A DNA stretch of 33,111 bases, from positions 1-33,111 of the forward strand of contig JALZUR010000040.1 of assembly GCA_023301025.1 (NCBI GenBank), read 5' to 3'. Positions 9,278 through 23,368 of this stretch are shown here, one piece after another. Origin of the DNA: Bdellovibrionales bacterium. Lineage in GTDB: Bacteria > Bdellovibrionota > Bdellovibrionia > Bdellovibrionales > UBA1609. The position numbers were made by a program, and so were the translations under genes. Below the pieces are notes generated by a model. The model was not told the origin of the DNA. It did no database searches and saw only the letters and a list, made by a program, of their open reading frames with translations. Position 1 is the stretch's first letter; every line of letters starts with the position of its first letter.

Positions 9278-9505
9278 ATAGAAATTATTATATAGGCTTA
9301 AGCCTTCTTAGAGCAAGTGAGTCTTTTAGTATAAAATTATTCTAATTCTGTAGATTGTTAAGTCTTAAAAGTGTTTAAAAGTTTTATAGTTCAGCTGAAG
9401 GAATTACAGGATTTTGTGAAATTTCAAAAAAACATACAAAATACCCAAAGAGCGTGTCAGATTGAATTTGATATAAGTATACGGATAACTAAGGAGCTCT
9501 TTGTC

Positions 9506-11374
9506 GTGAATCTAAAAAATCTTATTTTAAAAACAGTACTGTCATCTTTACTTTTAGTGTTTACAGCTTGTGATAATACCAGTCGAAGAATTGAACACAA
9601 AGACAGTGTTGTTGTGGACTTACAAAATCTAGCTAAGTCTAAAGAGTCTTTAGAAGACATGGGTATTAGAGTTGTTAAAAAGAAAGCTTCAAATGGCACA
9701 GAAACGGTTGAGGTGTCATTAGAAGACTTAGAAAATGAGATAGCTAAAACTCGTACAACTAGCGAGGCAATTTCTTACACACAAAGTGCAATGTCTACTG
9801 TTGATGATTATGTTGAAAATTCAGAAACAGCCTTAAAATCTAGACATCTTGGTACGCCCGAGAAAAAAGCAATCAAAGCAGAACTACTTGCTGTTCAAGA
9901 AGCTACAGAAGTTATGAAGTCAAAACTCCAAAGCTTAAAAAGTAAAAATATCAAAGACGGATCTATTAAAAAAGATGATGACTTGAAAAAAGAATCTGGA
10001 TCTGCACATGCAAACAATGATGATCAGAGCAAAGATGCTACGGTGCAATCTGATTCTCAAGAACACAAAGGTTCAGTTGATAAAGAAGGTTCATTAGAAT
10101 CAACTGAAAAAAGTGATACTGATAAGGTTTTAGAAAAAGATGCATCATCAAACTCTTCTAATACAGCCATAGCTGCGGCTGCCACAGCCGTCGTTGCAGG
10201 AACTGTTTCTGCTGTTGAAGGTTCAGAGAATAAGACTAAAAATGCACCTGATAGCAGTGAAACATCTGCAGAAACTAGTGCTGCAGCTGGTAATGATGTG
10301 ACTGAATCTTCTGATAATGAAGCTGATACAGCTCAAAACGAAGATAGAGAAGAGTTAAAAGAACACTCGTATTCTGATCTAGTCAATGCCATTGAGAACA
10401 AAGAGTGTTCTCAAATAAGCGAGATTTTTTCGGGTATTGAAGTTGCCATGATGTTAGATGGTCTTAATGACTCGAATAGAACTATGCATGATGTAGAAAA
10501 TAAATTTTTTGCTGTAGCGGCTCTTGATGATAAGACCTGTGCAAAAGAGGTGACTGAATCACTCTTAAGTTCGAGAATAGATAAAGATGTTAAAAAACTC
10601 ATGTTTCATCAACTTCAAAATGATGTCGATGTAAACGAAGTATTAGAATCTAAAGTTAACGAAGCTGACGAAAGAAGCACATTATTTGTGCCTGATTTTG
10701 AATTATTAAAAGAAGCAAACTACTCCCTCTTTTCTGAAGAGCCTTTTCCATTAGGTGTATTTTCTGCTGCTGCTAGTGAGGAGTCAAAAACATCTTATAT
10801 GTCTTACCTTTTGACCCATATTCATACCGAAGAAGGAATGTCTGCTGATGAAGTTGAGAGTAAAATGACAGACGTTCTTGATAAGCTCTATGCTTCATAT
10901 CCTGAAGAAACCATTAACTGGGTAAACTCTGAGTCTTCATTCAATGGGCAAAGTCCATTTGTAGCAGCAGCTATGTACAATGAAACAGGAATTTTTAGAG
11001 CCCTTTCTAAAGTTGAAGGTGCAAAGCCTAACACTGTCGACAAAAAAACAGGTTATAACTCTTTTGAATGGCAACATGTTGTAAACCCTTACTATATGAT
11101 GAACCTTAACTTACTTGGAGTTTATGCGGATTCAGAGATCAAAGACGTACTAGAAGAGTCAGGTTTAGATCCAAGAACAGATGTTTTTGGGTACTCCTAT
11201 GAAGTCGGTCAAAATAAAGGCACTCAAATGAGCACAGAGGTAGACTGGATATACACTATTGCAAACAAGCACATTGAAGACATGAAATCTAAACTTTCTG
11301 AGTCTGAGTATCCTTTTGGAAATACTTCTAAAGCTACAAAGCTTGAGTACATCCCTTATAAATTCTTTAAATAA
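9506..11374 (+). CDS. Large acidic putative lipoprotein
   Basis: I chose GTG at 9506 because AAGGAG (9491-9496) precedes it and the product then begins with a lipoprotein signal: N-L-K-N-L-I-L-K, a hydrophobic stretch and V-F-T-A-C with the lipid Cys at residue 22. The longer frame from 9371 would bury this signal. The product is 622 residues. Residues about 25-150 are helical and charged; about 155-290 form a low-complexity Ser/Asp/Glu/Lys/Ala region interrupted by a short Ala/Val-rich stretch (A-I-A-A-A-A-T-A-V-V-A-G); about 295-622 look globular. The C-terminal block P-F-V-A-A-A-M-Y-N-E-T-G-I-F is faintly ankyrin-like. I recognise no family and assign no function. Confidence 0.6.
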   Translation: MNLKNLILKTVLSSLLLVFTACDNTSRRIEHKDSVVVDLQNLAKSKESLEDMGIRVVKKKASNGTETVEVSLEDLENEIAKTRTTSEAISYTQSAMSTVDDYVENSETALKSRHLGTPEKKAIKAELLAVQEATEVMKSKLQSLKSKNIKDGSIKKDDDLKKESGSAHANNDDQSKDATVQSDSQEHKGSVDKEGSLESTEKSDTDKVLEKDASSNSSNTAIAAAATAVVAGTVSAVEGSENKTKNAPDSSETSAETSAAAGNDVTESSDNEADTAQNEDREELKEHSYSDLVNAIENKECSQISEIFSGIEVAMMLDGLNDSNRTMHDVENKFFAVAALDDKTCAKEVTESLLSSRIDKDVKKLMFHQLQNDVDVNEVLESKVNEADERSTLFVPDFELLKEANYSLFSEEPFPLGVFSAAASEESKTSYMSYLLTHIHTEEGMSADEVESKMTDVLDKLYASYPEETINWVNSESSFNGQSPFVAAAMYNETGIFRALSKVEGAKPNTVDKKTGYNSFEWQHVVNPYYMMNLNLLGVYADSEIKDVLEESGLDPRTDVFGYSYEVGQNKGTQMSTEVDWIYTIANKHIEDMKSKLSESEYPFGNTSKATKLEYIPYKFFK

Positions 11375-12129: not shown

Positions 12130-13584
12130 ATGCGTAAACAGTTTCTTTTAATCATAACATTTATTAGCTGCTCTTGTATAAGTTTAAAGAAAAATCCGAG
12201 CTTTGAAAGGCAGCTTAGTAACGTTGCCTCTACGAGTCGCAAAAATTCAAACAAAGCTTGTCCAACTACTGGGTCTAGGTTTTTATCAGATGAGTTTTTT
12301 GAAGAGATTTATATGTTTTCTGATCGTGATTATGGGGCGCCTTTGACTAAAGTTAGCAATTTAAAAAAAATTGTTAGCTTTCTACTTACTGAGTCAGGTG
12401 AAGAGCCGCCAAAGATTGTTTTGGCTGTATCAGAACTAAATTTTAAAGCAATTACTACTGCTGTTGATAGCCTAATTCAAAAAGGTCTTTTAAGTTCATC
12501 TTCTTTAGAAAGTTTAATTCATGTTGCTGGAGAAGATTATCGTACACCATGGTATCAGGATTACATAGTATCACAGTTTGATGCCAAAACAGGCAAGTCT
12601 ATTATGGTGGGGTTAGTACTTACCAACAAAGATTCTGAAATTGGTCAATATTATGAGGGCTATAATAAATTTTTCTCTATTTTAAATCAAAAATTAAATT
12701 TTACTCATAAACCAAGACTCGTCTCGATACCTAAAAATGTTGAGCCCAATTTTTTTAGAGACCAGCAAGGTGGAAACATTGATGGACTGCCAGGGGGACT
12801 TTGTATTCTTGGCGATCAACAAAAAAAAGAGTTTGCATCTAATTTTTGTGGAGATGAAAAGAACTTAGTTTATGTCTACACATCATGGCTTGAAACCAGT
12901 CATCTAGATGAAATTTTTAAAGTTGTTAAACTGCCTTCAGCGCAGAATAGTTGTGTTATAAATATTTATAGAGCCTCTCCAGAAAAAGCTATGTCTTTAA
13001 TGAAGCAAAATCCAAATCTAAAATTTATCAATTATTCAAGTAACAACTTGAGTACTCTAAAAAAAGGTCATGTTTTACCAAATTTTTGTAAAGAAGTTGG
13101 GCTTGATGTTCAGAGTTGTGTTGTAGCCACTAACAAAGAAATACTAGATGCAATCGATCAAAACTCATATTTTTTGAAATCACAAAATTTGCTCGAGAGA
13201 CTTTTAATAAAAGATACCGAAAATGTTAGAGAACGCCTCAAGATAAATAACCCTAACTGTAGAATTGAAGTAATTGATGTTCCAAATTTATTTTATCAAA
13301 AAAGACTAGCAGAAGTCTCAGAGGACGTGCTTTCAAATGGCTACTTTAGATCGGTATTTCCAAGTTTTACAAATTCAGTTACTCTCAATAGAGGTAATAA
13401 ACTTAATTTAATTTATTCAAAGCCTTACAACCTTGCTTTTAATGAGTATATAAATGTTCTTCATGAACAACTTGGCATAGCTTTGCTTGAAGTCGACACT
13501 TGGGTAAATGGTCATGAGCGAGATGGAAATATTCATTGTATGACAAGTGTACAAAGAAGGTGCAAGCCTCAAAATATTAAATAG
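12130..13584 (+). CDS. Putative lipoprotein with a peptidylarginine deiminase (PAD)-like catalytic domain
   Basis: A 484-residue protein with a lipoprotein-type signal (R-K-Q-F-L-L-I-I-T-F-I-S then C14, with C16 also possible). The body matches the C-terminal catalytic domain of animal-type PADs (PF03068) in motif order: R138-T-P-W-Y-Q-D144 equivalent to the W-x-Q-D segment carrying PAD4 Asp350; a G-G-N-I-D-G-L-P-G-G block; S-H258-L-D260-E equivalent to H471-V-D473-E-F; and G-N-I-H469-C470-M-T-S-V-Q-R equivalent to G-E-V-H-C645-G-T-N. All four catalytic positions (D144, H258, D260, C470) are kept. PADs convert peptidyl-arginine to citrulline with Ca2+; whether that is the reaction here, or a related amidinotransferase/hydrolase reaction, is untested. 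It probably sits at the outer membrane. Confidence 0.7.
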   Translation: MRKQFLLIITFISCSCISLKKNPSFERQLSNVASTSRKNSNKACPTTGSRFLSDEFFEEIYMFSDRDYGAPLTKVSNLKKIVSFLLTESGEEPPKIVLAVSELNFKAITTAVDSLIQKGLLSSSSLESLIHVAGEDYRTPWYQDYIVSQFDAKTGKSIMVGLVLTNKDSEIGQYYEGYNKFFSILNQKLNFTHKPRLVSIPKNVEPNFFRDQQGGNIDGLPGGLCILGDQQKKEFASNFCGDEKNLVYVYTSWLETSHLDEIFKVVKLPSAQNSCVINIYRASPEKAMSLMKQNPNLKFINYSSNNLSTLKKGHVLPNFCKEVGLDVQSCVVATNKEILDAIDQNSYFLKSQNLLERLLIKDTENVRERLKINNPNCRIEVIDVPNLFYQKRLAEVSEDVLSNGYFRSVFPSFTNSVTLNRGNKLNLIYSKPYNLAFNEYINVLHEQLGIALLEVDTWVNGHERDGNIHCMTSVQRRCKPQNIK

Positions 13585-13744: not shown

Positions 13745-15349
13745 CTATAATGAAGAAGAATGACTAATTTTACTCTCAATATATTCATTGTATGTGGTGT
13801 ACTTATCTTCAACTAAAGCCACATCAATGTCGATGATTCTATTTGCTATGGTTTGTACAAACTCGTGATCAGGAGATGAGAAGATCACTGTGCCTTCAAA
13901 TCTTTTTACACCATCGTTGACTGCGGTTACGGATTCTAAATCAAGGTGAGCCGTAGGTTGATCTAGTAGTAAAACATTTGCACCTGAGAGCATAGATTTA
14001 GAAAGCATGCAGCGCACACGCTCTCCACCTGAGAGTACTTTTGTGCTTTTTAAAGCTTCGTCTTTTGAAAAAAGTAATTTTCCTAAAAAACCTCTGATAA
14101 AGGTTTCATCTTTGTCTTTTGAATACTGTCTAAGCCAATCAACTAAACTCATGTCTGCTGTCTCAAACTCTTTAGAGTTGTCACTTGGAAAGTAATCTTT
14201 AGTGATCGTTACACCCCAGGTTACAGAGCCTGAGTCGGGTTCTGATTCACCTGAGAGAATTTCAAAAAGAACAGTTTTTGCGATATCATTTTTTCCAAGA
14301 AGCGCAATTTTATCACCCTTCTCTACATTAAAACTTATGTTGTCTAAGACAAGCTTACCCTCAATTGATTTACTTAAACCTTCAACTTTTAAAACATCTT
14401 TTCCGGCTTCACGTTCAGATTTAAAGCCTATAAAAGGGTAGCGTCTAGTAGACGTTGGCATATCTTCTAGGGAGAGTTTTTCAAGTTGCTTTTGTCTTGA
14501 TGTAGCTTGCTTTGATTTTGCAGCATTTGCAGAAAATCTGGCTATAAATTTTTTGAGTTCTTCAGCCTTAGCTGCCGATTTTTTGTTCTGATCGGCTTTT
14601 AGTTTTTGGTTAAGCTGGCTTGTTTGTCTCCAAAACTCATAGTTTCCGGTGTAAGTTGTGATTTTTCCAAAATCAATATCTGCAATGTGGGTGCAGACTC
14701 TATTCATGAAGTGTCTATCATGGCTAACAACAATCACAGTGTTTTCAAATTTTAATAAAAATTCTTCTAACCATTTAATGGCATAAACATCCAAATGGTT
14801 TGTTGGTTCATCTAATAATAATATATCAGGATCTCCAAAAAGGGCTTGTGCTAAAAGTACTTTTACTTTTGAATTTCCATCAAGTTCTTTCATTAGTTTT
14901 TCATTAAGCTCAACTTTAATTCCTAAACCTGCCAAAAGAATTCCAGCTTCAGACTCACACTCGTAACCATTCATTTCAGCAAATTCTGTTTCAAGAAGAG
15001 CTGCCTTTTCACCATCTGCATCAGAAAAATCTGCTTTAGAATAGAGCTCAGCTCTTTTTTGCATGACTTTGTAGAGCTGATCATTTCCCATCAGTACGGT
15101 GTTCATTACAGTTTCTTCATCAAAAGCAAAGTGGTTCTGTCTTAAAAAGGAGAGCCTTAGGTCTTTGTTTTTATGAACGCTGCCTTCGTTGGCTTCTACT
15201 TCTCCAGAGAGTATTTTTAAGAATGTAGATTTTCCTGCCCCATTAGCTCCAATTAAGCCATAGCAGTTATTTTGCGTGAACTTTACATTAACATCATCAA
15301 AAAGAGTTTTTCCGCTAAATTTTAAACCAATATTTGAGGTGCTTATCAT
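13745..15349 (-). CDS. ybiT: ABC-F ATPase, YbiT-type, with a degenerate second nucleotide-binding site
   Basis: ABC-F proteins bind the ribosomal E site and modulate translation; they carry two ABC domains and no membrane part. The ATG at 15349 gives 534 residues, matching YbiT (530), with an N-terminus (I-S-T-S-N-I-G-L-K-F) that aligns with it. ABC1 has an intact Walker A (G34-A-N-G-A-G-K-S-T), Walker B/Glu (L-L-L-D-E-P-T-N-H-L-D) and switch (S-H-D-R). Its signature is degenerate (E-L-D-G-N), as in YbiT. The linker has the S-R-F-S-A-N-A-x-K-S-x-Q-A-T-S-R type block. ABC2 keeps L-S-G-G-E, but its Walker A is G352-K-N-D-I-A-K-T, its catalytic Glu is Gln (Q464) and its switch is S-P-D-H. One composite ATP site therefore looks intact and the other dead. 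Confidence 0.9.
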   Translation of the reverse strand: MISTSNIGLKFSGKTLFDDVNVKFTQNNCYGLIGANGAGKSTFLKILSGEVEANEGSVHKNKDLRLSFLRQNHFAFDEETVMNTVLMGNDQLYKVMQKRAELYSKADFSDADGEKAALLETEFAEMNGYECESEAGILLAGLGIKVELNEKLMKELDGNSKVKVLLAQALFGDPDILLLDEPTNHLDVYAIKWLEEFLLKFENTVIVVSHDRHFMNRVCTHIADIDFGKITTYTGNYEFWRQTSQLNQKLKADQNKKSAAKAEELKKFIARFSANAAKSKQATSRQKQLEKLSLEDMPTSTRRYPFIGFKSEREAGKDVLKVEGLSKSIEGKLVLDNISFNVEKGDKIALLGKNDIAKTVLFEILSGESEPDSGSVTWGVTITKDYFPSDNSKEFETADMSLVDWLRQYSKDKDETFIRGFLGKLLFSKDEALKSTKVLSGGERVRCMLSKSMLSGANVLLLDQPTAHLDLESVTAVNDGVKRFEGTVIFSSPDHEFVQTIANRIIDIDVALVEDKYTTYNEYIESKISHSSSL

Positions 15350-15510
15350 TCCGTACCGCCTTAGCATGATGTATACTCTTGTGCTTTTTTTATGACAAGA
15401 AGCAAACGAACCCAATTAATGACTTTGTATAAATGACTGATTTAGTAAGATGGCGGGTAAATGGGACGTAGTTAGAACAGACGTACTTAAAACCAAGCTC
15501 TCTTAAAGGC

Positions 15511-16104: not shown

Positions 16105-16292
16105 TAGAAAAATTAAAAATGACTTAAGAATAGGCGATCGATTAATATTGCCGAACAATTAGTCTAAGATTGGTTACTCTTATAAAAAATGCTTCTCACT
16201 TTTAAATTATCATTTACTCTCTATTAAGATTCTGATTGTGTAATGTAGTATTTATTTTAGTAAAAAAACAACCTAAATTTAAGGGCTTTTTA

Positions 16293-17651
16293 ATGGAATT
16301 TAAAATTAAAAAAGGTTTAGATCTTCCTATACAGGGTGCTGCAAAAGAAGAGCTAGATCTAAGTAAGGGTGTTAAATCAGTGGCCATCGTTGGGCATGAC
16401 TTTAAGGGCATGAAACCCACTATGCATGTAAAAGTCGGAGACAAGGTTAAAGTTGGTCAAAAACTTTTTGAATGTAAGAAAAATGAAGGTTTAACTTTTA
16501 CAAGCCCCGTGAGTGGTGAGGTAAAGTCATTAAACCGTGGTGCAAAGAGAGTATTTCAGTCTCTGGTTGTTTCAATCTCTGGTAGTGAAGAGCACGTTAA
16601 TTTTAGCGCTCACAAACACACAGAGGCTAAAGCTTACAGCAAAGAGGAGTTAAGAGCTTTACTTGTTGAATCAGGTGAGTGGAGACACTTAAGACAGCGT
16701 CCTTTTGATAAAGTGGCCTCAGTCACAGGTGATGCCAATTCTATTTTTATCACTGCCATCGATACAAATCCTCTTGCTCCTAAGCCAAAATTTATTATCT
16801 CTCAGTTTGAAAAAGAGTTCCAAGAGGGCGTTAAGGCTTTAGCAAAGCTTCCAAAATCAAAGACCTATGTATGTGTTGAAAAAGGCTTTGATGTTTCACT
16901 TGCGGCAGGGGATAGCAACATAGAAAAGGTTGAATTCTCTGGGGTACACCCGGCCGGTAATCCTGGGACACACATACACTTTGTTGATCCTGTAAACATT
17001 GACAAAGTTGTTTGGCACATTGGTTACCAAGACGTCATAGCAATTGGTCACCTTATTTTAAAGGGAGAGATCATGACTGATAAAGTTATCTCTCTTGCAG
17101 GGCCTATTGCTAAAAACCCAAGATATTTAAAAGTTAAGCGTGGGGCATGTCTTTCTGATTTAGTAAAAGATGAAATCAAAGATGGCTTTGAGGCTAGAGT
17201 GATTTCAGGATCTGTCTTTAGTGGCTTAAAATCTGATGGTGGATCTTTTGATTTCTTAGGACACTATTCAAATCAAGTTACACTTATAGAAGAAGACACC
17301 AAAAGAGAACTTTTAGGTTGGCACTCGCCAGGTTTTGATAAATTTTCATTAAAAGGGATTTACGTTTCAGCATTAAAGCCGAGTCTTAAGTTTGCCTTTA
17401 CATCAACCACTAATGGTTCAAAAAGAGCAATGGTTCCGATTGAATCTTTTGAAAAGGTTATGCCTTTAGATATTTTACCAACTCAATTGCTTAGAGCTCT
17501 AGAATCAAGAGATACTGATACGGCTATCAGTCTTGGGGCTTTGGAACTTTCAGAAGAAGATTTAGCATTAGTAACGTTTGCGGCTCCAGGGAAAATAGAT
17601 TTTCCTAGAGTCTTAAGAGAAAACCTAGATATGATTGAAAAAGAAGGATAA
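16293..17651 (+). CDS. nqrA: Na+-translocating NADH:quinone reductase subunit A
   Basis: NqrA is a peripheral cytosolic subunit of the Na+-NQR complex, which oxidises NADH, reduces ubiquinone and pumps Na+. The ATG at 16293 (452 residues, near the usual 446) is chosen for an AAGGG about 8 nt upstream and because the product then begins [13 protein letters not shown]-x-G, the family N-terminus. The barrel-sandwich-like region [16 protein letters not shown] (near residues 49-65), then T-S-P-V-S-G-E-V, and the later [10 protein letters not shown] block are all present. First gene of nqrABCDEF; nqrB follows after 5 nt. Confidence 0.96.
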
Positions 17652-17656
17652 TAACT

Positions 17657-18865
17657 ATGGGTTTAAGAGGTTTTTTAGATAAACAGCATAAGTATTTTGA
17701 TAAAGGGGGTAAACTTGAAAAACTTTACCCACTCTATGAAGCCATCGATACTTTTTTGTACACTCCTGGTGAAGTGAATGAAGGAAGTGTTCATGTAAGA
17801 GATGGAATTGATTTAAAAAGAACAATGGTGAGTGTGGCTATTGCACTTAGTCCTTGTATCATGATGGCCATGTACAACACAGGCTTTCAAGCTTTAAACG
17901 CCTATGAGTCTATGGGTGCCACAAGCATCGGTGGGGGATGGAGAGGTCAACTTTTAGGATCATTAGGTTTTGGTGTTGATCCATCAAGTATAGGTTTATG
18001 TTTTTTACTTGGAGCTTTGTACTTTTTCCCTATTTTTATAGTCACAAACTTAGTAGGTGGTTTTTGGGAAGGTCTTTTTGCTTCTATTCGTAAGCATGAA
18101 ATTAATGAAGGCTTTTTAGTTACAGGTCTTTTATTTCCTTTAACGCTTCCTGCAAGTATTCCATTGTGGCAAGTCGCTATTGGTATCACCTTTGGTGTTG
18201 TTGTAGGTAAAGAGGTTTTTGGTGGTACTGGTAAAAACTTTTTAAACGTTGCACTTACGGCTAGAGCATTTTTATATTTTGCATATCCGGTTAATATTTC
18301 AGGAGATGCAGTATGGACTGCAGCTGATGGATACACTGGGGCAACAATTCTTGGTCAAGCGGCACAAGGTGGGGTTGAGGCTATCACCCATAACTTTTGG
18401 AATGCATTTTTAGGAATAGTCCCAGGTTCAATGGGAGAAACGTCTGTCTTAGCAGCTCTTATTGGTGCAGGATATTTACTGATGACTGGAATAGGCTCTT
18501 GGCGAATCATGCTTAGTGTTGTGCTTTCGGCCTTCTGTTTTGCAGGGCTATTAAACTTTATTGGAAGTGATACAAACCCAATGTTTAGCATGACTCCTGC
18601 TTGGCACTTTGTTTCAGGTGGATTAGCTTTTGGTTTGGTCTTTATGGCTACGGATCCAGTCTCGGCTTCGATGACCTTAAAAGGTAAGTGGTTCTACGGA
18701 GCTCTTATTGGTTTTATGACTATTTTGATTAGGGTGATCAACCCTGCCTACCCTGAAGGGATAATGCTTGCCATTTTATTTGCAAATGTATTTGCCCCTT
18801 TAATAGATTATTTTGTAGTGAACGCAAACATTCAAAGACGGAAGTTAAGATATGCAAAAGGATAG
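17657..18865 (+). CDS. nqrB: Na+-NQR subunit B
   Basis: A 402-residue polytopic membrane subunit that carries covalent FMN and riboflavin and helps form the Na+ path. The FMN attachment motif G-Y-T-G-A-T230 (consensus S/T-G-A-T) is intact, to be modified by the ApbE encoded downstream. The N-terminal soluble segment (about 1-50) with F-L-Y-T-P-G is typical, followed by about ten membrane helices. The [12 protein letters not shown] block and the C-terminal P-V-S-A-S-M-T segment fit the NqrB/RnfD family. AAGGATAA precedes the ATG. The 3' end overlaps nqrC by 14 nt, suggesting translational coupling. Confidence 0.97.
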
Positions 18866-19682
18866 TGTTGTAGGAACAGTGGTTGTAGCCACATTACTGT
18901 GTGTGATCTGTTCAGTGTTGGTCTCAGGTGCGGCTGTTTCTTTAAAAGACAGACAAGATGCAAATAAGGTTTTAGATGTTAAGAAAAACCTTCTACTGGC
19001 TTCAGGACTTTTAAAAGACAAAAAAGCCAGTGCCGAAGTAATCGAAGCTGAATTTTCTAAAATTTCAACTGAAGTTATTGATTTAAGTACCGGTGAAAAA
19101 GTTGAAGGCATAGATCCTGTTATTTTTGATCAAAGAAAGGCTTCTAAAAATCCAGCTGAAAATAAAAGTATTGATCAAAGCAATGATCTTGCAGGTATCA
19201 AATACAGATCAAAGCTTGCCAAGGTTTACAAGCTTATGAAGGGCGAAGATGTTGAACTCTATATCTTTCCTATTCACGGAAAAGGCTTGTGGTCTACTAT
19301 GTACGGTTTTTTAGCCGTTGCGAATGATCTTAACACCATTAAAGGTATCGGTTTTTATGAGCATGCTGAAACTCCTGGTCTTGGTGGTGAAATTCAAAAT
19401 GTAAATTGGCAGGCTCAGTGGATTGGTAAAAAAATCTATGATGAGGCTTCTGCCTTAGATGTTTTATTTAAAGTAACAAAAGGCAGTGTTGTTGAAGGTT
19501 CAAAAAACAGTGAGTACATGGTTGATGGCCTTTCTGGTGCAACAATTACGAGTAACGGAGTAACTGGTACAATTAAATATTGGTTTGGAGCAAATGGTTT
19601 TGGCAAGTATATAGACAATCAAACCAAAGGCTCAGAGCAAGTTAAAAAGACTGTTAACAAAAAATCAGTAGGAGAGGCATAA
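18852..19682 (+). CDS. nqrC: Na+-NQR subunit C
   Basis: A 276-residue subunit with one N-terminal membrane anchor ([12 protein letters not shown], about residues 5-27) and a periplasmic FMN domain. The attachment motif is L-S-G-A-T231 in [11 protein letters not shown]. cholerae NqrC uses Thr225. The block [11 protein letters not shown] and [10 protein letters not shown] are strong NqrC signatures. Covalent FMN is probably added by the ApbE at 22256. The start overlaps nqrB; nqrD follows after 4 nt. Confidence 0.97.
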
Positions 19683-19686
19683 AGTT

Positions 19687-20310
19687 ATGGTATCTGGAAT
19701 TAAAAAAACACTTTTTGATCCTCTTTTTAACAACAACCCTATCGCTTTACAAATTTTAGGGATCTGTTCAGCTCTTGCTGTAACAACTAAAATGGATAAA
19801 ACTTTAGTTATGTGTGCTGCTGTTATCGCAGTTGTTGCACTTTCTAACTTTTCAGTGAGTCTTATTAGAAATTATATTCCTTCAAGCATTCGTATCATTG
19901 TTCAGATGACAATTATTGCATCCCTTGTGATCTTAACTGATCAAATTTTAAAAGCATTTGTTTATGACATTGCAAAAGAGATGGCAGTCTTTATTGGTCT
20001 TATTATTACCAACTGTATTGTTATGGGTAGAGCTGAAGGCTACGCCATGAAAAATGGTCCTGTTATGAGTTTTATTGACGGTATTGGTAATGGTATTGGT
20101 TACAGTATAGTTTTAATTTTTGTGGCCTTTTTTAGAGAGCTTTTTGGAACAGGAAAAGTTTTAGGGATTACAATTTTTAAATTAGTAAAAGATGGTGGCT
20201 GGTATGAAGCAAATGGTTTTGCATTGCTTGCGCCCAGTGCTTTTGTTTTGATTGGACTTTTTATTTGGGCCTTAAGAACTTGGAAAATCGATCAGATTGA
20301 AGAGATGTAG
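19687..20310 (+). CDS. nqrD: Na+-NQR subunit D
   Basis: A 207-residue membrane protein with about six helices, the usual size. NqrD and NqrE together hold the intramembrane iron centre (originally modelled as Fe, later as a 2Fe-2S cluster) between two inverted half-helices. The ligand cysteines are C27 (I-L-G-I-C-S) and C110 ([11 protein letters not shown]). The block [11 protein letters not shown] is the family signature. nqrE follows after 14 nt. Confidence 0.97.
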
Positions 20311-20324
20311 GTAGGAGCTTTTTT

Positions 20325-20936
20325 ATGTTAGAGCATTATATTAGTTTATTTATTAAGGCTGTTTTTGTTGAAAATTTAGCTCTTATGTTTTTCTTAGGCA
20401 TGTGTACGTTTTTAGCTGTATCAAAGCAGGTTAAGACAGCAATTGGTCTGGGTGTAGCAGTAGTTGTGGTTCAGACCATCACCATTCCTGTAAACAATCT
20501 TTTATACACATATTTATTAAAAGAGGGTGCACTTTCTTGGGCGGGCTACCCTGATGTAGACTTAAGTTTCTTAGGACTTATTTGCTACATTGGTGTGATC
20601 GCTGCCATGGTTCAGATCTTAGAGATGGCCTTAGATAAGTATTTTCCGCCTCTTTACAATGCCTTAGGTATTTTCTTACCGCTAATCACAGTGAACTGCG
20701 CAATTTTAGGTGGGTCTTTATTCATGGTCGAAAGAGACTACAATTTTCCTGAATCTGTGGTTTTTGGTTTAGGTTCAGGTGTGGGCTGGGCTTTAGCCAT
20801 AGCAGCTTTAGCTGGAATTAGAGAAAAAATGAAATACTCAGATGTTCCTCCCGGCTTAAGAGGGCTAGGAATTACATTTATCACTGTGGGACTGATGGCT
20901 TTAGGCTTTTTAGCTTTTTCAGGAATTCAGTTATAG
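20325..20936 (+). CDS. nqrE: Na+-NQR subunit E
   Basis: A 203-residue membrane protein, homologous to NqrD in inverted topology. Iron-centre cysteines are C27 (F-L-G-M-C-T) and C125 (T-V-N-C-A-I-L-G-G). The start [16 protein letters not shown] and [10 protein letters not shown] near the C-terminus are characteristic. GGAG lies about 8 nt before the ATG. A 112-nt AT-rich gap without an obvious gene or terminator separates it from nqrF, longer than any other spacer in the operon. Confidence 0.97.
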
Positions 20937-21048
20937 TATTAAAGTGTGTTTTGAGAGCTTAAAAATAGATTTTTAAAGACAAAGATAAAAGTAAAAGATT
21001 AAATTAAATGATTACAATAGATAACATGATTAAAGAAGTGAGACTTAA

Positions 21049-22272
21049 ATGAACGTTATAATTCTTGGTGTAACAATGTTTACACTTGTTGTTTTAGCAT
21101 TAGTTGCAGTGATTTTATTTGCTAAATCAAGACTTGTGTCTTCAGGGGCTGTAAGTATCAACGTAAATGGTGAAAAAGACTTTAGCACAGAAGCTGGTGG
21201 TAAGCTTTTAAATGTACTAGCTGACAATAAGCTTTTTGTCTCAAGTGCCTGCGGCGGTGGTGGAACTTGTGCCCAGTGCAAAGTTCAAATATTTGAAGGT
21301 GGCGGGGACATATTAGAGACTGAAAAATCTCACATTACTAAAAGAGAACAGCGTGAAGGTGTAAGACTTTCGTGTCAGGTGCCAGTGAAGCAAGACATGA
21401 AGATTGCAGTTCCTGAAGAGGTTTTTGGAGTTAAAAAGTGGGAGTGTACCGTTCGTTCTAATCACAACGTTGCAACTTTTATTAAAGAGCTTGTTTTAGA
21501 GCTTCCAAAGGGTGAGGCCGTTCCTTTTAAAGCTGGTGGTTTTATTCAAATAGAGCGTCCAGGTGGATTGGATATTGATTATAAAAACTTTGATGTTGAA
21601 GATGAATACAAAGAGGACTGGGATAAGTTTAATCTTTGGCAGTATAAATCATCTTCTTCTGATGAGGTTGTAAGAGCGTACTCAATGGCTAACTATCCTG
21701 AAGAAGAAGGGATAATAATGCTCAATATTCGGATAGCCACTCCACCACCAAACAAACCAAGCATTCCCCCTGGTTTGATGTCCTCTTACACCTTTGACTT
21801 AAAACCAGGTGACAAGTGCACAATCTCAGGACCTTTTGGCGAGTTTTTCGCTAGAGATACTAAAAAAGAAATGGTTTTTATTGGCGGTGGTGCAGGTATG
21901 GCTCCAATGAGATCACACATCTTTGATCAGTTTAGAAGAATCAATACAGATAGAAAAGTTACCTTTTGGTACGGAGCTCGTTCTAAAAGAGAGATGTTTT
22001 ATGTTGAAGATTTTGATCAGATACAAAAAGACAATGAGAACTTTACCTGGCATGTAGCTTTAAGTGATGCCTTAGAAAGTGATAATTGGGACGGGTATAC
22101 GGGTTTTATCCATAATGTTTTACATGAAAAGTATTTAAAAGATCATCCAAATCCAGAAGACTGTGAGTTCTATCTTTGTGGCCCGCCAATGATGAACTCT
22201 TCAGTTATTGATATGCTTATTAATTTAGGTGTTGAGCCAGAAGACATTATGCTTGATGATTTTGGTGGCTGA
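21049..22272 (+). CDS. nqrF: Na+-NQR subunit F (NADH dehydrogenase flavoprotein)
   Basis: A 407-residue electron-entry subunit. It has an N-terminal membrane helix (about 3-25); a 2Fe-2S ferredoxin domain with C68, C74, C77 and C109 ([11 protein letters not shown] and S-C-Q-V); an FAD domain with R-A-Y-S-M-A-N-Y; and an NADH domain with [11 protein letters not shown] and C-G-P-P-M-M. It passes hydride from NADH through FAD to the 2Fe-2S centre. The size matches V. cholerae NqrF (408). The apbE reading frame begins within or just after its 3' end. Confidence 0.97.
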
Positions 22273-23368
22273 GGTGTTTCCAAAATTAGGTTTAGCTTTT
22301 AAAAGGGGTCCTATTAGGACCTTTTTTTTATTCTTGTTGCTGCTTTTGTTTTTGGGATGCAACCAAAAAATATCTGACAGGCTTGTTGAGATTAAGGGCC
22401 GCACAATGGGCACCACATATTCTGTAAAGCTTGCGACCAATGCTAAAGGGCAAACTGGTTCTGAAGTTATATTAGGTAGCTTAGAGAAAAGCACTTTAGA
22501 GTTAGAGATTACAAAACTTCTAAAAAACATCAATCAAAGCATGTCGACCTACATCCCTGATTCTGAAATTTCTAAGTTCAATCAATCAAAAAAATTAGTT
22601 CCAGTAGTTTTAAGTAAAGATTTTTTTAAAGTCTTAAGCTTTTCTGTTCAAGTCGCAAAAGAGACAAGTGGTAGTTATGATCCAACACTTGGTCCATTGG
22701 TAAATCTTTGGGGATTTGGTCCTGATAAGTCAAAAACTGTTCCTTCGAAAAAAGAAATAGCGCATGCCATGAGCTTAAGTGGTTATAAAAAACTAAGTCT
22801 CTACTCTGATGTAAACGGGCTTAGTGCAGAAAAAAAAGTTGAAGGACTTTATGTTGATCTGTCTTCTAGTGCCAAGGGTTTTGCAGTGGATGAAATATCA
22901 AAGCTAATGCATAGTAAAAACTTAGCTCACCACCTAGTCGAAGTCGGAGGGGAGATAAAGGCACAGGGTAAAAAATTTGATACTGATTGGAGAGTGGCTA
23001 TTGAAAAGCCAAGTCTTGATAATACACGTTCAGTCTTTAAATCTTTCATTTTAAAAGATAAGTGTATTGCAACTTCTGGCAGCTATAGGAACTACTTTGA
23101 AAATGAAGCCAAAAGCTTCTCTCATGTGATTGATGGAGCCACTGGCATGCCGACAGTGCATAAAGTAATTTCTGCTACAGTTATTCATGAAAGCTGTATG
23201 AAAGCTGACGCATATGCCACAGCTTTAATGGTTTTAGGTTTTAAAAGAGCAAAAAAGTTTTCAAATGACAAAGGCCTTTTGAGCTATTTGATCTTTTCAG
23301 ATGACAGTAAAAAACTGACTACATATGGGTCTGATGCTTTTAAAAGCGAGCTTCCCATGATAGATTAA
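22256..23368 (+). CDS. apbE: FAD:protein FMN transferase ApbE (lipoprotein)
   Basis: ApbE transfers FMN from FAD to Thr of the S/T-G-A-T motif in NqrB and NqrC. Diagnostic blocks are [10 protein letters not shown], the G[16 protein letters not shown] region, [20 protein letters not shown] and A-D-A-Y-A-T-A-L (metal-binding Asp). The N-terminus has a lipoprotein signal ending L-F-L-G-C, so it sits on the periplasmic side, where NqrC FMN is attached. The start is uncertain: ATG 22256 is used, but GTG 22265 or 22274 is possible. The segment encoding K-R-G-P-I-R-T-F-F of the signal is also a textbook terminator hairpin (22301-22329). Confidence 0.95.
22301..22329 (+). terminator. Intrinsic terminator-like hairpin inside the 5' end of apbE
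   Basis: GGTCCT / AGGACC (6 perfect GC-rich pairs, 3-nt loop), extended by two G-U and four A-U pairs, is followed by eight T (22322-22329). It starts 29 nt after the nqrF stop. It looks like the nqr operon terminator yet lies within apbE signal-peptide codons, so it may act as a partial terminator or attenuator that lowers apbE/nqrM expression. Confidence 0.65.

Follow-up and report, generated by a model that had tools for sequence, protein, structure and literature searches.

A single-domain, exported and probably lipid-anchored PF03068 peptidylarginine deiminase-type protein in a Bdellovibrionales bacterium

A 33,111-nucleotide stretch of contig JALZUR010000040.1 (assembly GCA_023301025.1) from a Bdellovibrionales bacterium, hereafter the window, encodes a 484-aa protein with a catalytic domain of the peptidylarginine deiminase (PAD) family PF03068. 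As read from its sequence, this protein is a single-domain, exported, disulfide-rich and probably lipid-anchored PAD. We propose that it would be an envelope-anchored deiminase that modifies the side chains of arginine in external proteins or peptides, a reading of its activity, substrate and location to which we assign a probability of roughly 60%. The open reading frame begins with ATG and occupies exactly positions 12130-13584 of the plus strand, with no clear Shine-Dalgarno sequence before the ATG. Its features are:

12130-13584 (+): PAD (PF03068) catalytic-domain protein, 484 aa, assigned by Pfam, phmmer and Foldseek
12130-12177 (+): predicted signal peptide and probable lipobox, MRKQFLLIITFIS-C14-S-C16, from sequence, low pLDDT and the missing partner of the post-signal Cys
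12259-12261 (+): C44, predicted disulfide partner of C478, from covariation across 43 relatives
12550-12561 (+): motif W141-Y-Q143-D144, D144 being equivalent to PADI4 D350 (D and W in 43/43, Q in 39/43)
12568-12570 (+): V147, at the position of PADI4 Ca1 ligand E353 (E or Q in 39/43)
12769-12783 (+): motif G214-G-N-I-D218, D218 lying at PADI4 Ca1 ligand E411 (second G and N in 43/43; E411 position E in 36, D in 4)
12802-12849 (+): C225 (12802-12804) and C240 (12847-12849), predicted disulfide (both in 23 rows, neither in the other 20)
12859-13563 (+): stretch matched by PF03068, profile positions 179-388 of 395
12901-12909 (+): H258-L-D260, equivalent to PADI4 H471-V-D473 (H in 42/43, D in 42/43)
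12952-12954 with 13258-13260 (+): C275 and C377, predicted disulfide (both Cys in 43/43, not Cys in PADI4)
13087-13119 (+): C320 (13087-13089) and C330 (13117-13119), predicted disulfide (both in 39 rows, neither in the other 4)
13525-13545 (+): motif G466-N-I-H469-C470-M-T, C470 being equivalent to the nucleophile PADI4 C645 (C in 42/43, H in 42/43, G in 43/43)
13561-13563 (+): C478, predicted disulfide partner of C44, from covariation

That the catalytic domain belongs to PF03068 is established: Pfam matched the protein at 54.5 bits (E = 1.3e-14), far above chance and above the curated cut-off of 25, and the only other family to appear up to E = 10 was one unrelated DUF at 0.11. PF04371 (PAD_porph), which the initial annotation had named as the family to set against PF03068, gave no match up to the same E = 10. 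A phmmer search of the PDB matched the window protein to human PADI1 at 2.5e-5, and a profile built from 27 relatives returned PADI4 as best PDB match (3.3e-33), all matches being human-type PADIs save one at chance level (0.22). The AlphaFold model, built on a 16-sequence alignment (pLDDT 79, pTM 0.83), has the PAD pentein fold: Foldseek ranked PADI4 first in the PDB (3.4e-17), and the best 50 matches listed are all PADs or PAD-containing egg lattices or assemblies, such that neither Pfam nor the fold comparison offers a better unrelated family. The TM-score of about 0.54 (by query length) and rmsd of 5-7 against PADs indicate that the fold is correct and that parts deviate. Neither PAD_N (PF08526) nor PAD_M (PF08527) was matched in the window protein up to E = 10; residues 8-36 of the model have pLDDT below 50 and order sets in at about residue 41, where the catalytic domain begins, leaving no room for either.

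Conservation was counted over 43 sequences, window protein included, with PADI4 as reference numbering. The initial annotation had placed four catalytic residues in order and within the right motifs, and its numbering proved correct: D144, H258, D260 and C470 align with PADI4 D350, H471, D473 and C645, in the contexts TPWYQDYIV (D144), SWLETSHLDEIF (H258 and D260) and DGNIHCMTSV (C470). The relatives share 17-29% identity with the window protein, and at this distance D350, W347 and N409 are kept in 43/43 sequences and H471, D473, H644 and C645 in 42/43, which argues that the active site is under selection. The sole exception at the latter four positions is a lipoprotein PAD pseudoenzyme (L016, on G004:C51, minus strand of locus 1381-2889), which reads GMVNE for GHVDE and IQS for IHC and comes from the same family-level group as the window genome. 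In PAD chemistry, two Asp residues hold the guanidinium group, a His serves as acid/base and a Cys forms a covalent intermediate, from which water yields a ureido group. By analogy with the family, D144 and D260 would bind the guanidinium, H258 would be the general acid/base, and C470 would attack the guanidine carbon with release of ammonia; water would then resolve the covalent Cys intermediate to the ureido group, turning arginine into citrulline. That the protein is instead a degenerate or inactive PAD, serving as a binding protein or in the process of being lost, strikes us as improbable: the long branch that it forms in the tree (2.29), the Ca1 changes E353V and E411D, the missing partner gene (see below) and the pseudoenzyme within its own family-level group would all fit, as would the precedent of human PADI6, a PAD without calcium binding and without activity on standard substrates (PMC11402830), but the catalytic residues, W141, N216, G466 and H469 are all intact and the frame is open.

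Assuming an active deiminase, as we prefer, its calcium dependence may differ from that of PADI4, whose Ca1 and Ca2 ligands were taken from PMC5445078 and PMC11402830. The Ca1 site Q349/E353/E411 reads Q143/V147/D218 in the window protein and is incomplete; across the family it is mostly kept (Q349 is Q in 39/43, E353 is E in 29/43, E411 is E in 36/43), V147 being the sole Val at the E353 position among the 43 sequences. The Ca2 site E351/D369/N373 reads Y/V/K, with an uncertain alignment of the 369-374 loop; the E351 position is non-acidic in the relatives listed, and the family as a whole does not conserve Ca2. Nor does it conserve PADI4 R372 and R374, and the window protein has no Arg at either position under the same uncertain loop alignment. 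Calcium control may thus be weakened or lost in the window member specifically. The term 'animal-type' used in the initial annotation holds for the catalytic core and fails beyond it: PAD_N and PAD_M are absent, Ca2 and R372/R374 are not conserved and Ca1 is partial, and the window protein is not a three-domain animal-type PADI. Considered jointly, its long branch, E353V, E411D and lack of both Ca2 ligands and R372/R374 suggest that the enzyme may be weak, calcium-independent or directed at another guanidine.

R374 of PADI4 contacts the substrate backbone. Small guanidines, on which numerous penteins act, form the main rival substrate class. An envelope deiminase acting on free arginine, agmatine or guanidino compounds in nitrogen or arginine scavenging would be consistent with the non-conservation of R372/R374 in the family and with the window genome, in which no PF02274 arginine deiminase was found. 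We nevertheless regard this as unlikely, as the protein is closest in both sequence and fold to protein-modifying PADs rather than to agmatine or free-arginine deiminases, and lipid anchoring and the variety of anchors are at least equally compatible with a macromolecular substrate. Protein or peptide arginine is judged most likely, and the likeliest substrates would be extracytoplasmic proteins or peptides from prey, neighbours or the bacterium's own envelope. Activity, the arginine substrate, the preference for protein over free substrate, an outer-membrane or surface location and a role in predation are what we infer for the window protein.

Export is indicated by the N-termini of the family: nearly all relatives begin with a signal peptide, lipobox or membrane anchor when judged by eye. 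The candidate lipobox of the window protein, FIS-C14 (or SCS-C16), is non-ideal, with F at -3. In secreted relatives, the post-signal Cys seems to be paired with a mid-domain Cys; the latter is absent from the window protein (L193 there) and from four of six other lipobox members (L008, L010, L030, L038), which supports lipidation despite the imperfect lipobox. Two lipobox members with a spare Cys (L016, L034) keep the mid-domain Cys, and two exceptions (L037, L052) have the post-signal Cys and lack the mid-domain one. The lipid anchor claimed in the initial annotation is therefore plausible or probable, on the strength of the N-terminus and the loss of the mid-domain Cys, and falls short of certain because of the non-ideal lipobox. 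The lipidated Cys, C14 or possibly C16, would hold the protein on the cell envelope, and four disulfides would stabilise it. These disulfides were predicted from the covarying presence and absence of Cys over 43 relatives (the 'C478' counted for L010, which has an in-frame TAG at the end of the domain, is an artefact). The Cys pairs come and go jointly, as expected of disulfides, and cytosolic PADI4 matches none of the four as a pair, which points to an oxidising compartment.

The window genome carries one PF03068 gene. Among sampled Bdellovibrionota, PF03068 occurs in 48/291 genomes, compared with 0/14 control genomes, and in 18 genomes of the near-relatives set; at least three further genomes have PADs that the PF03068 model missed and that adjoin the partner gene described below. 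Contrary to the initial annotation, such an enzyme is thus not unusual in Bdellovibrionota, and bacterial PADs have already been published (PMC8826395). That survey puts the share of species with PADIs at 0.76% for bacteria and 0.43% for proteobacteria (PMC8826395). As the methods differ, the apparent enrichment in Bdellovibrionota is indicative only. A genome scan with the window protein alone returned nothing because the protein is too diverged, and a profile of an eight-sequence alignment recovered relatives. All 18 related loci from this profile search are MAGs, 17 of them named Bacteriovorax, Bacteriovoracaceae, Bdellovibrionales, Bdellovibrionaceae or Pseudobdellovibrionaceae and one only Proteobacteria. 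These names, together with a phylum that is that of predatory Bdellovibrio-like bacteria, bear out the earlier suggestion that the host may be predatory. A literature search on Bdellovibrio with citrullination or PADs found nothing relevant, and this large group of exported, disulfide-rich PADs in Bdellovibrionota is apparently undescribed. One genome (G268) holds seven PF03068 matches in six genes on several contigs, L021 being one of them. Phages and plasmids searched with the window protein gave no match; one relative, L022, had matches to an Embleya plasmid and to a Streptomyces plasmid gene that carries a PAD-domain annotation.

The PAD gene of most relatives bearing an ordinary signal peptide is followed closely by one encoding a secreted protein of 126-210 aa: the second gene begins at the PAD stop codon, in many cases overlapping it, or no more than about 10 bases away. 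One such partner gene (L041:9500-9937) lies downstream of a secreted PAD and is translationally coupled to it, and equivalents are found at about 25 loci (L006, L012, L014, L017-L019, L023, L024, L026-L029, L031-L033, L035, L039, L040, L047, L048, L050-L053, L055); on a single contig, G054:C26, PAD-partner pairs stand in tandem (L014, L019). Four Cys are invariant in 13/13 aligned partners, and a subgroup of five has two or three Cys and weak similarity to the rest. The partner belongs to no Pfam family; its predicted structure (pLDDT 85) is an all-beta small barrel with a C-terminal helix, for which the PDB held no significant match. Partners were found in 22/291 genomes, mostly adjoining a PAD, and G015 (L064, G015:C5) and G242 (L065, G242:C29) carry a partner-family gene with no adjacent PAD. 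The partner is absent beside the window PAD, and a search of the window genome, within its sensitivity, did not find one either. By raw count it accompanies 0/11 anchored and 25/31 other PADs (Fisher 3e-6); on the tree, the association of anchoring with partner absence reduces to two or three independent changes, and correcting for this leaves it without significance. The window protein lies at the base of the partner-carrying clade, which has support of 100/99 (88/71 for the remaining members excluding the window protein), and partner gain and loss are therefore indistinguishable on the tree.

Pentein enzymes include amidinotransferases, whose catalytic set is similar. That the PAD fold of the window protein serves another guanidine reaction, such as amidinotransfer, or that the protein is an effector against competitors, seems to us very unlikely: coupling of many relatives to a small secreted protein, possibly an inhibitor or immunity protein, would suit such a role, but the protein has neither a delivery domain nor a polymorphic-toxin layout, its genome yielded no partner, and PADLOC gave no match, on which a defence-system reading was also rejected. 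For the deiminase that we favour, a wider proposal is tentative: Bdellovibrionota may possess a diverse extracytoplasmic deimination system of single-domain, disulfide-locked PADs, either anchored and solitary or secreted and translationally coupled to a four-Cys small beta-barrel partner (an inhibitor, chaperone or specificity factor). These PADs would citrullinate proteins of prey or of the envelope, and in the window member control by calcium would be weakened or absent.

No conserved neighbours of the window PAD gene are shared with the related loci, and for the 165-aa ORF upstream the other genomes searched yielded no homologue; the neighbourhood thus offers no hint at a substrate. A gene for an ABC-F family ATPase (13745-15415, minus strand) converges on the PAD gene, with no terminator-like hairpin found between the two. 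Elsewhere in the window, 9371-11374 (plus strand) encodes a protein of 667 aa that contains a lipobox-like VFTAC and a long, charged stretch of low complexity and has no credible Pfam match, and 16236-23368 (plus strand) holds a Na+-translocating NADH:quinone reductase cluster, in which NqrA was identified by test and the others from order and size. The window genome also encodes two PF04371 penteins, G000:C3:17845-18999 (L067:846-2000), which has a signal peptide, and G000:C28:2-967 (L068), both far under the agmatine deiminase cut-offs; with at least one of the two bearing a signal peptide, guanidine chemistry by exported proteins may be a recurrent feature of this bacterium. A link between PF03068 and PF04371 was rejected, both occurring in 6 genomes of the near-relatives set against about 4 expected.

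Protein citrullination is viewed as mainly vertebrate, and bacterial cases are few. Were our reading true, about one in six sampled species of the largely predatory Bdellovibrionota would have an exported PAD, amounting to a large unexplored reservoir of single-domain, disulfide-stabilised and perhaps less calcium-dependent deiminases, many with a linked protein, of relevance to the origin of PADs, predator-prey biochemistry and enzymes for citrullination tools. As bacterial PADs are already known (PMC8826395), what is probably new is the single-domain, exported, disulfide-rich and lipid-anchored variant.

With animal PADI1-4 (PADI4 structures such as 1WDA and 8R8U), the window protein shares the pentein fold, the D/H/D/C set, the WxQD, HxDE and GxxHC motifs and the substrate-stacking Trp; it differs in lacking PAD_N and PAD_M, in being exported and disulfide-rich, in its identity of about 16%, in having lost the Ca2 ligands and part of Ca1, and in not keeping R372/R374. 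In the survey of PADIs from bacteria and fungi by Cummings et al. 2021 (PMC8826395), whose main text does not mention Bdellovibrio, the bacterial proteins likewise belong to PF03068, are annotated with PAD_C only and diverge at calcium site 2; they are reported to have a divergent PAD_M, whereas the window protein has about 40 low-confidence residues before its catalytic domain. Porphyromonas PPAD and the agmatine deiminases (PF04371) have the same pentein fold and Cys/His/Asp chemistry, and PPAD is secreted, but the window protein does not match their family up to E = 10. Human PADI6 resembles the window protein in combining the PF03068 fold with replaced calcium ligands; unlike PADI6, which is reported to be inactive, the window protein keeps the full catalytic set.
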